From Acidobacteriota bacterium (lineage in GTDB: Bacteria; Acidobacteriota; Thermoanaerobaculia; Multivoradales; JBCCEF01), in contig JBCCHV010000039.1 of assembly GCA_039028635.1 (NCBI GenBank), positions 1-63,508 on the forward strand: a DNA stretch of 63,508 nucleotides, read 5' to 3'. A model generated the notes under the pieces. It was not told where the DNA came from, ran no database searches, and was given only the letters and a program-made list of their open reading frames with translations. A program made the position numbers and the translations under genes. Shown piece after piece: positions 21,877 to 28,933 of the stretch. Numbering within the stretch: position 1 is the first letter of the stretch; every line of letters begins with the position of its first letter.

Positions 21877-21950
21877 AGCGCCGGCGATCGCTCCCCGGGG
21901 TGGCGATGCCCGCCCCGGGAGGGCCGCCCCCGCGAGGTAACATCGGTGCC

Positions 21951-23369
21951 ATGCGCGTCACCAGCCTCTTTCTCGGCCTCGCCCTCGCCGTGCCCGCCCT
22001 GGCGGACTTCGACCAGCACTTCACGGAGCGCACCCTGCGCTTCGACTATCACCACGCGGGCACCGCCGGCGAGGAGCACATCGCCCTCGATACCCTGCGC
22101 CTCGAAGGCCCCTGGCCGGGGAGTCGCACTCGCTTGATCGACGACACCAACCTCGGCAAGTACCTGTTCGAGGTGGTCGACCCGACCACCCACCGGGTCC
22201 TCTATTCGCGCGGCTTCGCCAGCATCTACGGGGAATGGGAGACCACCGCCGAAGCGCGCAGCCATTGGCGCACCTTCCACGAGAGCCAGCGCTTTCCGGA
22301 GCCTCGCCGGCCCGCCCAGCTAGTGCTCAAAAAGCGCGCCGCCGACGGCGCCTTTCGCGAGATCTTCAGTCGCCGCATCGATCCCGCCGGCCGCTTCGTC
22401 GACCGCTCGCCCCTGGCCCCCGCCGGCAAGCCCTGGGTGGTGTTCGAAAACGGACCCGCCGCCACCAAGGTGGACCTGCTGATCCTCGGCGACGGTTACC
22501 AGGCGGGCGAGCTCGAGAAATTCCGTCGCGACGTCGAGCGTCTCACCGCCTACCTGTTCGAAACCGAGCCCTTCTCCCACCACCGCAGCGACTTCAACGT
22601 TCGCGCCATCGACGTCGCGTCCCATGACTCGGGCATCGCCGATCCCCGTGAGCCCGGCCACCAGGGCTGGCGCAATACTCCTCTCGGCCTGTCCTACAAC
22701 GCCTTCGACTCCGAGCGCTATGTGCTCACCTACGCCAACCGCGAGCTGCGCGAGATCGCCGCCCTGGCGCCCTATGACGCCCTCATCTTGCTCGCCAACA
22801 ACCGCAAGTACGGCGGCGGCGGAATCTACAACCTGTGGACCACGGCGGCCGCCGGCAGCAATCAGGCGCCCTACCTGGTGGTGCACGAGTTCGGCCACTC
22901 CTTCGCCGGCCTGGGGGACGAGTACTACACCTCGCAGGTGTCCTACGAAGACTCGATCAGCGGCTCCGCCGAGCCCTGGGAGCCCAACATCACCGCGCTG
23001 CTCGATCCGGACGACCTGAAGTGGAAGGATCTCGCCACGCCGGACGTTCCGTTGCCGACGCCCTGGAATCAGGAGCGCTATGACGAGGCCTCCCTCGAGT
23101 ACCAGGCCAAACGTCAGGCGCTGCGCGCCGCCGGCGCCGGCGAGGAGCAGATGGAAGCGCTCTTCGCCGAGGTCAAGGCGGTCACCGCGCCGCTGTTGCA
23201 GAGTGAATCCCACTACGGGGCCGTCGGCGCCTTCGAGGGTGCCGGCTACCAGGCGAAGGGCCTCTACCGACCGGCCGCCGACTGCATCATGTTCACGCGC
23301 AACCCGCGCGGCTTCTGCCCGGTGTGCTCGAGCGCCATCGAAAAGGTGATCGCCCTCTACGCCGAGTAG
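21951..23369 (+). CDS. Peptidase M64 (IgA-peptidase family) secreted metalloprotease
   Basis: 472 residues from the ATG at 21951; signal peptide to about residue 16 (FLGLALAVPALA). An N-terminal M64 domain (ERTLRFDYHHAGTAGEEHIA) precedes the catalytic domain with VDLLILGDGYQAGE and the zinc site VVHEFGHSFAGLGDEYY. The C-terminal ADCIMFTRN with FCPVCSSAIE is the usual M64 ending. Length is typical. It lies 74 bases after the matrixin-like gene. Confidence 0.92.
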   Translation: MRVTSLFLGLALAVPALADFDQHFTERTLRFDYHHAGTAGEEHIALDTLRLEGPWPGSRTRLIDDTNLGKYLFEVVDPTTHRVLYSRGFASIYGEWETTAEARSHWRTFHESQRFPEPRRPAQLVLKKRAADGAFREIFSRRIDPAGRFVDRSPLAPAGKPWVVFENGPAATKVDLLILGDGYQAGELEKFRRDVERLTAYLFETEPFSHHRSDFNVRAIDVASHDSGIADPREPGHQGWRNTPLGLSYNAFDSERYVLTYANRELREIAALAPYDALILLANNRKYGGGGIYNLWTTAAAGSNQAPYLVVHEFGHSFAGLGDEYYTSQVSYEDSISGSAEPWEPNITALLDPDDLKWKDLATPDVPLPTPWNQERYDEASLEYQAKRQALRAAGAGEEQMEALFAEVKAVTAPLLQSESHYGAVGAFEGAGYQAKGLYRPAADCIMFTRNPRGFCPVCSSAIEKVIALYAE

Positions 23370-23429: not shown

Positions 23430-25175
23430 ATGGCGGCAATGGAACCTGCTCCCCAGCGCCCTCTCCCGGAGGGCTACTACGTCGCCAACTTCATCACCCT
23501 GCTCGACCAAGTCGAGCAGCGCTATGGCGACCTGCTGACCGCCGAGGAACACTCCCTACGCGAGCGCTTCCTCGGCCTGTCCGAGGGCGCCCAGCGGCTC
23601 TATGTGCGGTTGGCCTCGCGCCGCGGACCGGTGTTCCGGCGCGATCGGCTGGCCTATCCGGAAATCCCTCGCCTCGACGCCGCCCTCGAAGACCTCGAGG
23701 CGGCACACCTCGGCGACCGCGGCGACCCGGATGACTTCGCCCCTCGGATCGGTCTCCTCCTCAAGGCCGAGCTCACCGACCTCGCCCGCCAGCTCCTGCC
23801 GCACCAGCGCGTCTCCGGCGAAAGCAAGGCCGATCTGCGCCAGCGCCTGCTGGACGAGGCATCGCCCGCATCCCTGAGTCTGGTCCTCGGCGACTTCGAA
23901 GTGGTTCGACCCCTCGATCTCGAGCTGGTCGACCTCTACCAGCTCCTGTTCTTCGGCAATTTCGGTCAAAACCTCACCGAGTTCGTTCTGCGCGATCTCG
24001 GCGTGGTGACCTTCGAAAGCTACTCTCTGGATCCGGACCTGCGCCGATTTCCGGATCGCGTCGCTCTCGACGACACCCTCGAGCTGCACACTATCCGGCA
24101 ACATCTCGCGGAGCTCCTGGAGGCCGGCGATGTCGACGCCGTCGAGGCCGTCGGGCGCTCGGTGCTGGCTCGCTGCGACCCATGGCATCAACTCTGTCAA
24201 CGCCCCCTCGACAGTCTCCTGCTGGCCGCTGGGCGAGCTCTCGAACGGGCCTCCCGATGCCATGCCGCCCTCGCCCTCTTCGAGCCGGTGAAGCGCCCGC
24301 CGGGCCGCGAACGGCGAGCCCGTCTGCACCACCGCTTGGGTCGAGACGACGAGGCCCTCGCCCTCTGCACCGCCATGACCGCCGAGCCGCGGGACGAGAC
24401 CGAAATCGCTTTCGCCGACCGCTTCGCGCACCTGGTGCTGCGGCGCCAGGGGAAGGCGGAGCCCCGGCCACGGCCGCGCCGGTGCAGCCAGGATCTCGCC
24501 CTGCCCTGCGGCGAACCGGACGACGGAGCCATCGAGGAGCGCGTTCTGGCGCACTTTGCGAACCACGGACGCCAGGGATTCTTCGCCGAGAATTGGCTCT
24601 GGCGCAGCCTCTACGGACTGGCCTTCTGGGACATCGTCTTCGCCCCCGTCGCCGGCGCCTTCGAGCACCCCTTCCAGTACGGCCCTCTCGACCTGACGAG
24701 GCCGGACTTCCGGCCCCCACGAGAAGGCTTGATCGAGGCCCGCCTGGACCATCTTCGTCATCACCGAGAAATCGGCAGCCTGAGCCGCGAGCTGCTCGCC
24801 ACCTATGAGCGCAAGCGCGGCTTGGCCAACCGGCTGGTGCCCTGGAACGAGGAGCTGAAGTCGGCCCTCGAGCTCGCCCTCGGGCGCCTCCACGGCCCCC
24901 AGCTCGCCGCCGTCTGCGACCGACTCAGCGGCGGCCTGCGGCGCTACGGCCGCGGACTTCCGGACCTCTTCGTGACCGCCGCCGATCCTGACGACCTCGG
25001 CTTCACCCTCTACGAGGTCAAAGGCCCCGGCGACACGCTGCGTCCGGAACAGGGCCGGTGGATCGATTTCCTCAACCGGAACCGACTGCCGACAAAGCTC
25101 TTACGGGTCACCTGGAGGAGCGATGCCGCATGCTACGATCGAGTCGATGGCGAATCCCCTTCGCCACCGCCTTGA
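23430..25175 (+). CDS. VRR-NUC domain protein, FAN1-like nuclease
   Basis: 581 residues. N-terminus YYVANFITLLDQVEQRYGDL and a winged-helix-like GAQRLYVRLASRRGPVFRR match bacterial FAN1 homologues. The C-terminal VRR-NUC nuclease core shows GLPDLFV, then the catalytic E-x-K (YEVKGPGDTLRPEQGRWIDF). Middle region is helical (TPR-like). The family cleaves 5' flaps and acts in interstrand-crosslink repair in eukaryotes; the bacterial role is less clear. ATGs at 23430 and 23439 are both possible starts. Confidence 0.9.
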   Translation: MAAMEPAPQRPLPEGYYVANFITLLDQVEQRYGDLLTAEEHSLRERFLGLSEGAQRLYVRLASRRGPVFRRDRLAYPEIPRLDAALEDLEAAHLGDRGDPDDFAPRIGLLLKAELTDLARQLLPHQRVSGESKADLRQRLLDEASPASLSLVLGDFEVVRPLDLELVDLYQLLFFGNFGQNLTEFVLRDLGVVTFESYSLDPDLRRFPDRVALDDTLELHTIRQHLAELLEAGDVDAVEAVGRSVLARCDPWHQLCQRPLDSLLLAAGRALERASRCHAALALFEPVKRPPGRERRARLHHRLGRDDEALALCTAMTAEPRDETEIAFADRFAHLVLRRQGKAEPRPRPRRCSQDLALPCGEPDDGAIEERVLAHFANHGRQGFFAENWLWRSLYGLAFWDIVFAPVAGAFEHPFQYGPLDLTRPDFRPPREGLIEARLDHLRHHREIGSLSRELLATYERKRGLANRLVPWNEELKSALELALGRLHGPQLAAVCDRLSGGLRRYGRGLPDLFVTAADPDDLGFTLYEVKGPGDTLRPEQGRWIDFLNRNRLPTKLLRVTWRSDAACYDRVDGESPSPPP

Positions 25176-26493: not shown

Positions 26494-26598
26494 CCGGGCC
26501 GCTCCAAGTCGCAAATCCCACCGTCGCCCCGGACCGTAGAGAGAGCGACGGCGGGAGCCACCTCCGCCGCTCTTCGAAAACCCTCGGGAGGAAAGACC

Positions 26599-27609
26599 TT
26601 GAAGACGCGTTCCTGGATCGTCCTCGTCGCTATCGTCAGCCTGCTCGGCGGCTCCGCCTTGGCGGCGGCCGACCGCAAGCTGCCGGAGCCTCACCCGGAC
26701 CTGCCGAAGGAGTTCAAACAGCTCCTACCGCGCGGCGGCATCCCCTCCGTCGACAACCCTCAGTTCGTCAACGCCGCAGAGGCCGAGATCGCCGACGATG
26801 CCTGGGTACTGGGCGTCGCCCTCGACGGCGAGGCGCGGGCTTACAGCCTCAACCTGCTGAATCGCCACGAGATCGTCAACGACCGGATCGGAGAGCGGCT
26901 GTTCGCCGCCGTGTGGTGACCGCTCGCCAACACGGCCGTCGTGTACGGCCGCAGCTACCAGGGCAAAGAGCTCAACTTCGAGCCCTCCGGAGGTCTTCTC
27001 CACGCCTCCCTGGTGATGCAGGACAAGGAGACCAGCTCCTACTGGGCGATCATGACCGGCGACTCCCTCGCCGGCCCATTCCAGGGCACCGCCCTCGACG
27101 AGCTGCCGCTCGGTGAGAAGGCGACCTGGGCAGACTGGAAGGCGCGCTACCCGCACACCACCGTGCTGTCGGTGGAGGGCGAAGAGCACGTTCAAAACAA
27201 TCCCTACGACAACTACTTCGCCTCCGAGAAGGGCTTCCGCGGCAGCACCGCTGAGGACGACCGGCTACCGACCAAGGAGCCGATCTTCGCCTTCTTCCAT
27301 GACGACAAGCCGCGCGCCATCGTGCTCGCCGGCGTCGCCGGCGGCGCCATCGTCCGACTGGGCGAGCGCGACCTCTTCCTGCATCGCCCGGCCGGCGCTC
27401 CGCTCTTCCGCTCCACCGCCGCCCACCTCGGCGACCGCGGCAGCTTCAGCCAACGCGACGGCGCCTGGCACCACGGCGATCAAGCCTTCGACCCGGCGAG
27501 CGGCAGGTTCTCGGGCGAGGTCGAACGCCTCGAAGGATTCGACACCTTCTGGTTCAACTTCTCGGAGACCCATCCGAAAGTGAAGATCCTGCGGCCGGAA
27601 AAGGGCTGA
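26599..27609 (+). CDS. DUF3179 selenoprotein (in-frame TGA read as selenocysteine)
   Basis: TTG start after GGGAGGAAAGACC; signal peptide to about residue 24. The frame runs 26599-27609 with one TGA at 26917, codon 107. The DUF3179 homology is continuous across it: GEARAYSLNLLNRHEIVND before and NTAVVYGRSYQGKELNFE with DKETSSYW after. Family members I know have TYCPLC here; this protein has AVW-(TGA)-PLA, so TGA replaces the first Cys. A hairpin 14 bases after the TGA fits a bacterial SECIS. The downstream half keeps full coding character for 230 codons with no other lesion, which argues against a pseudogene. Function of DUF3179 is unknown; an exported redox role is likely. Confidence 0.85.
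26917..26951 (+). promoter_or_regulatory. Bacterial SECIS-like element (TGA plus hairpin)
   Basis: TGA at 26917-26919. The stem CGGCCGT (26933-26939) pairs perfectly with ACGGCCG (26945-26951), leaving loop CGTGT (26940-26944). The loop begins 21 bases after the TGA and has G at its second position, matching the known bacterial SECIS rules (short apical loop 16-37 bases after UGA with a G among its first two bases). Confidence 0.75.
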
Positions 27610-27877: not shown

Positions 27878-28903
27878 TCAGTAGCCGATCCGGAGATCGG
27901 AGCTGGTGAGGCTTTCGAGAAAGGCGACCAGGGCGGCCTGCTCGTCTTCGCTGAGGTCGAGGGGCTCGATGCGCTCGTCCTGGAAGCGGTTCTCGATTCC
28001 ACCTTCGACGTAGAAGTCGACCACCGCTTCGAGGGTATCGAAGCGGCCATCGTGCATGTACGGTCCGGTGATCTCGACGTTGCGCAGGCTCGGGGTCTTG
28101 AAGCGGCCGCGGTCCTCCGGCATCAGGGTGACGTAGAAGCGACCGAGGTCGATCTTCTCGTAGTCGAAGCCGATGCCGGTGTTGTGGTACTCGAAGTCGG
28201 TGAAGAAGGGCTGCTGCCGATCGAAGCTGTGGCAGCTCACGCAGCCGGCCTTGTTCTGGAACAGGTCCCAACCGGCGAGGGCCTCGGCCGAAAGGGCTCC
28301 GCGATCATTCGCGAAGTAGTAGCGGTCGAAGGGCGAGTCGCCGGCGATCAACGTGCGTTCGTAGGTCGCAATGGCCTGGGAGATGCGCTCGAAGGTCACC
28401 TCCGAATCGCCAAAGGCCTGGTCGAAGAGCACCGCGTAGGCCGGGTTTGCCGCCACATCCTCGACCGCTTCGGCCGGGTCGTCGCGGCGCATCTCCTTGG
28501 GATGGATCACCGGGTACTCGACCTGCGCCTCGAGGGACGGCTCCTCTCCGATCCAGAGCAGCTCCGGCTGGTAAGCGACGTTGAGCAGGGACGGCGCATT
28601 GCGCACTCCGAGGACCCCTCCCACCCCCAGCGGCAAGGGCTCGCCGTCGCAGAAGGCCTTGTCCGGCAGATGGCAGCTGGCGCAGCTCAGAGAGCCATCG
28701 GCGCTCAAGGCCGGATCGAAGAACAGTTGCTTGCCGAGGGTGATCTTTTCCGCCGTCATCGGATTGCCGTCCGGTACCGGGACCGGAGGGAACCCGAGAG
28801 GTAACTCGACCCGGTAGCCGATCGGCGCGACCTGCACGGTGGCACAGGCCACCAGGAAGGCCAGCGCCAGGCAGAGGAGCAGAGGGGCTTTCGGCAAGCG
28901 CAT
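27878..28903 (-). CDS. MauG / dihaem cytochrome c peroxidase family lipoprotein
   Basis: 341 residues from the ATG at 28903 (a start at 28930 adds nine). Lipobox AFLVAC puts it on a membrane facing the periplasm. Two haem sites: CASCH and CVSCH, and the family landmarks LGKQLFFDPALSADGSLSC, SLLNVAY and FKTPSLRNVEITGPYMHDG. Members reduce hydrogen peroxide or modify partner proteins. It lies directly downstream of another lipoprotein gene on the same strand, probably co-transcribed. Confidence 0.93.
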   Translation of the reverse strand: MRLPKAPLLLCLALAFLVACATVQVAPIGYRVELPLGFPPVPVPDGNPMTAEKITLGKQLFFDPALSADGSLSCASCHLPDKAFCDGEPLPLGVGGVLGVRNAPSLLNVAYQPELLWIGEEPSLEAQVEYPVIHPKEMRRDDPAEAVEDVAANPAYAVLFDQAFGDSEVTFERISQAIATYERTLIAGDSPFDRYYFANDRGALSAEALAGWDLFQNKAGCVSCHSFDRQQPFFTDFEYHNTGIGFDYEKIDLGRFYVTLMPEDRGRFKTPSLRNVEITGPYMHDGRFDTLEAVVDFYVEGGIENRFQDERIEPLDLSEDEQAALVAFLESLTSSDLRIGY

Positions 28904-28933
28904 GTTTCGGCGGGTATCAGCTCTCGGCAATGG

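Follow-up and report, generated by a model that had tools for sequence, protein, structure and literature searches.

Does the in-frame TGA of a DUF3179 gene in this acidobacterial DNA encode selenocysteine (Sec), and if so, what kind of protein carries the residue? Here, we consider the gene within the window, by which we mean the whole 63,508-nucleotide stretch analyzed, and alongside its relatives in the phylum.

A reading frame interrupted by TGA

The frame at 26599-27609 of the forward strand contains a single internal stop, the TGA at codon 107, with 106 codons before it and 229 after. When this TGA is read through, the product matches Pfam DUF3179 (PF11376) over residues 46-327 (E 3.2e-57; 194.6 bits against a gathering cut-off of 27) and covers profile positions 2-291 of 292. 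The GC contents of the three codon positions are alike on the two sides of the TGA (0.72/0.43/0.89 5' and 0.66/0.47/0.89 3'), and base-shuffled versions of the part downstream were stop-free in 9 of 2000 trials. The original prediction of one TGA (26917-26919) in an otherwise open DUF3179 frame, with coding bias on both sides, is thus borne out, as is its claim that Ala replaces the second Cys of the family, the motif at the TGA being W-U-P-L-A. Its further claim of export is supported by a likely N-terminal signal peptide, judged by eye, and the gene product is likely exported. The features of the locus are as follows.

26586..26592, + strand: Shine-Dalgarno-like GGGAGGA, 6 nt 5' of the TTG start, read from the sequence
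26599..27609, + strand: predicted DUF3179 selenoprotein gene, with TTG start, 336 residues including Sec107, and terminal stop TGA
26599..26667, + strand: likely signal peptide, approximately residues 1-23, with cleavage near ALAAA (by eye; the model has a helix at 2-24)
26794..27198, + strand: repeat R1, residues 66-200, the putative Sec-bearing Rieske-like domain (hhalign of R1 against R2; VIA-align)
26917..26919, + strand: in-frame TGA, predicted selenocysteine codon 107 (sequence; homolog column)
26933..26951, + strand: candidate bacterial SECIS hairpin, stem 26933-26939 / 26945-26951, loop 26940-26944 (CGUGU) (covariation, register scan, and energy)
27262..27600, + strand: repeat R2, residues 222-334, a second copy with neither Sec nor Cys (hhalign; separate model)
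27607..27609, + strand: TGA as the ordinary stop of the same DUF3179 gene (sequence)

A genome search found DUF3179 relatives in 132 of 396 genomes of the phylum. We parsed 146 loci, drawn from among the matches listed plus three loci from a separate search for relatives; matches of genus g3 in G109, G118, G223, G270, G310, and G342 (two) lie outside this set. At the column of codon 107, the loci split into 59 with TGA, 73 with Cys, and 14 with another residue (Ser, Asn, Gly, His, Asp, or Gln), so that Cys or TGA occupies the column in 132 of the 146. The prediction that Sec stands in for the first Cys of the family is borne out by this distribution together with the hairpin described below. 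With the TGA recurring in 59 loci, we rejected a sequencing slip as not credible. TGA forms occur in at least 41 of the 396 genomes.

In an unrooted tree of 142 of the 146 loci, the window protein and its nearest relatives cluster with full support in a group of 12 rows, each carrying TGA and U-P-L-A. The group draws on several families of the phylum and on one contig (L051) labeled Candidatus Krumholzibacteriota. This metagenome-assembled genome, so assigned by its label, nests within the clade of the window's phylum, which would mean either transfer or a mislabeled contig.

The second motif residue varies among the 59 TGA loci (A in 24, C in 19, T in 9, and others in 7), and Cys107 is joined by Cys110 in 70 of the 73 Cys-type proteins surveyed. 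Cys110 is missing from 40 of 59 Sec loci vs 3 of 73 Cys loci (Fisher 8e-16, kinship ignored). The idea that Sec freed the family from Cys110 was not upheld once relatedness was counted: there are 5 independent pairs on supported branches, and on average Cys110 changes in the same direction in 0.7 of them. The proteins whose key column holds something other than Cys or Sec (L080, L097, L109, L119, L122, L134, L136, L143, L145, L147, L149, L152, L153, and L162) keep the second Cys in 8 of 14 cases, and their activity is possibly changed or lost.

The candidate SECIS hairpin and the decoding machinery

Downstream of the TGA lies the hairpin CGGCCGT-CGTGT-ACGGCCG (26933-26951), which has 7 perfect pairs and a 5-nt loop with G as its second base. 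The stem begins at the 14th base past the TGA, and the spacing from TGA to loop is 20 nt. The predicted perfect 7-bp stem and 5-base loop starting 14 bases past the TGA are therefore present as described. A bacterial SECIS model with a loop of 3-9 nt, a stem of 4-16 bp, G in the first two loop bases, a spacing of 16-37 nt, and a minimum free energy of at most -7.5 is given in a figure legend (PMC13188914, Fig. 2A legend). The window hairpin lies within these published constraints as that legend states them, at 5 nt, 7 bp, G second, 20 nt, and -12.4 kcal/mol.

Taken alone, the hairpin is unremarkable for this GC-rich DNA and proves little. The 22-nt hairpin at -12.4 kcal/mol has a z of -2.41, but over the 45 nt starting at the TGA the z is only -0.35, on which ground we rejected any significance drawn from the single sequence. 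The minimum-energy fold of 91 nt favors pairings other than the SECIS hairpin, and an Rfam scan of the window returned no match at the gathering score. A register-free scan for SECIS-like hairpins (-7.5 kcal/mol or better, with G within the first two loop bases) separates the forms weakly, with hits in 35 of 59 TGA loci vs 26 of 87 others.

It is the comparative evidence, and not the single fold, that makes the hairpin more than chance. In the register of the window, with the stem starting 16 nt from the T of TGA (+16), at least 6 of 7 pairs form in 43 of the 46 W-U loci and all 7 in 36; the weakest three (L050, L063, and L089) have 5 pairs each. At least 6 pairs also form in 3 of the 4 remaining TGA loci outside the LCHTG clade introduced below. 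Cys-type DUF3179 proteins (CPLC or CTLC) share the domain and the column with the window protein but are without the hairpin in this register: 6 pairs are reached in none of the 73 Cys loci (63 outside the LCHTG clade and 10 inside) and in none of the 14 other-residue loci. We aligned the hairpins of 50 of the 59 TGA loci (49 distinct; alignment A2), omitting the 9 that use the other hairpin register. In A2, 95.6% of cells are paired, and 7 of 7 pairs and 37 cells are altered on both sides. None of 500 shuffles matched four of the five measures, the covariation score among them, and the fifth, further pair types, was matched in 11 of 500. Sliding the register by moving the partner 1-3 columns lowers pairing to 25-43%. 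On the strength of this covariation across TGA loci, we regard the hairpin as a candidate bacterial SECIS element.

The other register belongs to a clade with the motif Y-U-[T/S/V]-L-C-H-T-G (L141, L142, L144, L148, L151, L155, L158, L159, and L160), in which the stem lies 5 nt nearer to the TGA and forms at least 6 pairs in 9 of 9 Sec members. The Cys relatives within this LCHTG clade keep a weaker version in the same nearer register, with at least 6 pairs in 7 of 10 and one perfect stem, indicating that coding constraint contributes there. All 9 Sec forms of the clade, but none of its 10 Cys forms, come from genomes positive for selB (Fisher p 1e-5, kinship ignored). This split by selB serves as a natural control, with the caveat that the rows share ancestry. 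The two registers suggest two origins of the SECIS element, the tree being unrooted.

The source genome (6.28 Mb in 117 contigs, with the window as contig C39) encodes the complete machinery that a Sec assignment calls for. The selA and selB genes are adjacent on C21 (535.4 and 367.5 bits), selC, a tRNA-Sec with anticodon TCA, is on C2 (73.3 bits), and selD is on C42 (279.3 bits), all above their cut-offs. A second above-cut-off tRNA-Sec match is a tRNA-Ser(TGA) by ARAGORN and was not counted. Across the survey, with E 1e-72 standing in for the curated selB cut-off, a selB match at this level or better was found in 36 of 41 genomes with a TGA form vs 218 of the remaining 355 (254 of 396 overall; Fisher p 5e-4, kinship ignored). 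The five TGA genomes with no full-strength match (G081, G350, G357, G290, and G317) are drafts, 63-93% complete. The genomes of three further relatives all pass the curated selB cut-off.

Taken together, these results indicate that the TGA at codon 107 almost certainly encodes selenocysteine. SelB would read UGA codon 107 as Sec, directed by the hairpin 14-32 nt downstream, and the terminal UGA of the same gene would act as a stop. A real stop at codon 107, leaving a pseudogene or two separate open reading frames, is highly improbable. Under translation table 11 the first frame does end at codon 106, and a 222-codon frame can begin at GTG 26941, but a real stop is contradicted by TGA at the exact column in 59 of 146 loci, by the covarying one-register hairpin confined to TGA forms, and by the even codon-position bias across the TGA. 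Decoding as Trp or by general read-through through a change of code is more improbable still, to the point of being negligible, since nothing beyond the open frame speaks for it, while the same gene ends in TGA, as do 22 of the 40 TGA loci for which the retrieved DNA includes the gene end. Other loci mostly align Cys with the TGA, none of the 146 has Trp there, and the source genome holds the full Sec machinery with tRNA-Sec(TCA). As judged from these gene ends, TGA is also a stop in this lineage, with no reassignment of the code.

A duplicated fold with a possible Rieske likeness

From 139 eligible sequences we took the 48 best and aligned 42 of them (A1); some rows run a few codons past a terminal TGA, since every TGA was translated as Sec. 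An AlphaFold2 model built from these 42 sequences has a pLDDT of 92.9 and a pTM of 0.87. In hhalign, R1 (66-200) matches R2 (222-334) with a probability of 99.4 and an E of 1.2e-21. The score of 120 is far above the maximum of 20 among 100 decoys, and we conclude from this profile comparison that DUF3179 is an internal (tandem) duplication.

Foldseek comparison of both models with solved structures gave no match below E 0.001. In the VIA comparison, the top 14 rows are all Rieske-type, spanning residues 75-185 (one row to 235) at Z 7.2-5.0 and rmsd 2.6-4.1. Among them are 3c0d, dicamba monooxygenase, and arsenite oxidase, which we take to be Rieske-type. The best VIA-align match of R1 is a Rieske ferredoxin over residues 76-177, at a Z of 7.2, a level that a common structural arrangement can also produce. 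R2 modeled alone (pLDDT 94.6) places Rieske proteins first at Z 4.2 and 4.0, with CheW (3.8) and others close behind.

Sequence profiles were less uniform. Against a Rieske profile built from 30 Rieske domains of the relatives' genomes, R2 gave a probability of 50 and a score of 28, with a decoy maximum of 17 and 0 of 100 decoys as high. R1 gave nothing against Rieske profiles, 70 of 100 decoys scoring as high. A search of NCBIfam found no family up to E 1, and a search of PDB sequences with the family profile found no match up to E 10. The Rieske ligand motif C-x-H ... C-x-x-H occurs in 0 of 146 aligned parts.

The window protein may share its topology with Rieske ferredoxins and NirD-like proteins over residues 75-185 (Z 7.2-5.0), with the NirD-type 3c0d among the best matches; NirD itself is not known to carry the cluster. 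It differs from Rieske ferredoxins in having no [2Fe-2S] ligand motif, in its tandem duplication, and in carrying Sec in a turn and not at a cluster ligand, as placed by eye. We considered Sec107 as a replacement of the first Rieske cluster Cys and dropped the idea, as the colinear match places the residue in a beta turn that precedes the cluster loops. In that VIA match, residue 76 falls on the start and residue 177 near the end of 2qpz, which is the basis for the placement by eye; the beta turn is presumably the right position, given a by-eye alignment to the ferredoxin sequence. DUF3179 appears to be a tandem Rieske-like beta-sandwich that does not have the Rieske iron-sulfur ligands. Rieske kinship is moderately supported, and a Rieske origin of the family is a tentative proposal that we rate at somewhat less than an even chance.

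The proposed chemistry of Sec107 and its place among known selenoproteins

Apart from position 107, the window protein contains no Cys. Across the 14 UPLA loci covered, the window's among them, any further Cys falls either 76 or more residues ahead of Sec or in positions from the terminal stop onward. The window protein thus cannot form an intramolecular selenenylsulfide. Should Sec107 be a redox nucleophile, its cycle has to be closed by a thiol or redoxin from outside. In the mechanism that we propose, Sec107, at a strand end in the first copy (R1) and the only thiol/selenol residue of the protein, would serve as nucleophile in the catalysis of a redox reaction in the periplasm, and its selenenic or mixed selenenylsulfide state would be resolved by an outside thiol or redoxin. 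We put redox catalysis by Sec107 at about an even chance.

Alternatively, Sec107 could be a metal or cofactor ligand of Rieske-like heritage and not a redox catalyst, a reading that we consider unlikely. The Sec half does resemble Rieske domains in fold, and E91 and D142 (both invariant in the 42 rows of A1) and H90 (nearly invariant) could serve as ligands. Against this stand the absence of C-x-H..C-x-x-H from all 146 aligned parts and the Ser, Asn, Gly, His, Asp, or Gln found in 14 of 146 homologs, although three of these (His, Asp, and Asn) are themselves able to bind metal. According to one review, moreover, most selenoprotein families are considered to be redox proteins (PMC9312934). Less likely again is a noncatalytic sensor of selenium or thiols whose Sec bonds to another molecule; in its favor, the chain offers no Cys partner and the gene has no conserved neighbors, and nothing speaks directly against it, but it is less parsimonious than an enzyme given the CxxC and UxxC forms of the family.

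The genes around the UPLA loci offer little guidance on partners. Across 11 relatives and the window (crude ORF calls, BLASTP 1e-10), no family besides DUF3179 is common to more than 3 of 12 loci; the neighborhood is not conserved, and hence no substrate or partner is indicated for the window protein. In the window, a WS/DGAT acyltransferase gene precedes the selenoprotein gene, and a MauG-type diheme peroxidase gene follows on the opposite strand. The latter, a MauG-type diheme cytochrome c peroxidase at 27878-28930 (-), is convergent with the selenoprotein gene and did not emerge as a shared neighbor. Farther upstream are genes for an M64-family peptidase (21900-23369, +) and a FAN1-HTH/VRR-NUC protein (23430-25175, +).

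The source genome has a second Sec-DUF3179 gene (G000:C17; L163 8755-9480, -), which is single-domain with the motif U-P-S-E. This gene shares with the window gene the family, the genome, the TGA, and the hairpin register, its hairpin being a perfect 7-bp one. Unlike the window protein, its product consists of R1 only, has U-P-S-E and a distal CxxC pair at +87/+90, and adjoins a redoxin; it is lipoprotein-like by eye. An FG-GAP/UnbV_ASPIC gene lies before it and the redoxin gene after it (open frame L163 8136-8855). A CxxC redoxin follows the single-domain UPSE paralog in 3 of 3 genomes examined (G000, G001, and G153), and that of G000 is an AhpC/TSA-Redoxin protein by Pfam. The hint of a redoxin partner thus comes, by analogy, from the UPSE paralogs and not from the UPLA genes.

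DUF3179 is not a new selenoprotein family. Two reviews list DUF3179 (PF11376) as a Sec family with the motif UxxC/T, both crediting the work of Zhang and Gladyshev 2007 on the Olavius algarvensis delta-1 symbiont (PMC9312934, PMC13188914). With DUF3179 already listed there, the central novelty claim of the original prediction, a new selenoprotein family, falls. The listed proteins share with the window protein the Pfam family and a Sec at the first position of a CxxC-like motif; the window protein differs in having UxxA in place of UxxC/T, no other Cys, and an acidobacterial host. UxxA is not found in the DUF3179 rows of either review, and "UxxA" and "Rieske" are absent from the main text of the 2026 review (PMC13188914). 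The literature searches on DUF3179 likewise turned up no statement on UxxA, duplication, or Rieske similarity. Taking the listed motif UxxC/T as descriptive, the UxxA window protein marks a variant. On comparative sequence evidence, the gene in the window truly encodes a selenoprotein, one that belongs to a known Sec family but has a version with UxxA and no Cys that is missing from those lists.

Overall, the best reading, which we hold to be probable, is an exported DUF3179 selenoprotein with a Rieske-like tandem duplication, in which Sec107 would act as a redox nucleophile needing an outside reductant. A bolder joint reading is possible but doubtful: DUF3179 would be an unrecognized branch of the Rieske proteins, duplicated and cluster-less, that swapped iron-sulfur chemistry for a thiol or selenol in a neighboring turn, with a SECIS element that arose independently in two registers. 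The UPLA proteins would then be its extreme form, exported enzymes whose sole reactive residue is one Sec and which work with an outside redoxin.

These findings bear on how the family is annotated and studied. Standard annotation cuts the Sec forms of this exported family at the TGA, and Sec-DUF3179 is frequent in one phylum. The series CxxC, UxxC, UxxT, UxxA, and Cys/Sec-free offers a natural set for asking what effect Sec has on a redox site. The duplicated, possibly Rieske-derived fold is a new structural hypothesis for DUF3179, and for this family of unknown function it supplies a structural framework that lends itself to testing.
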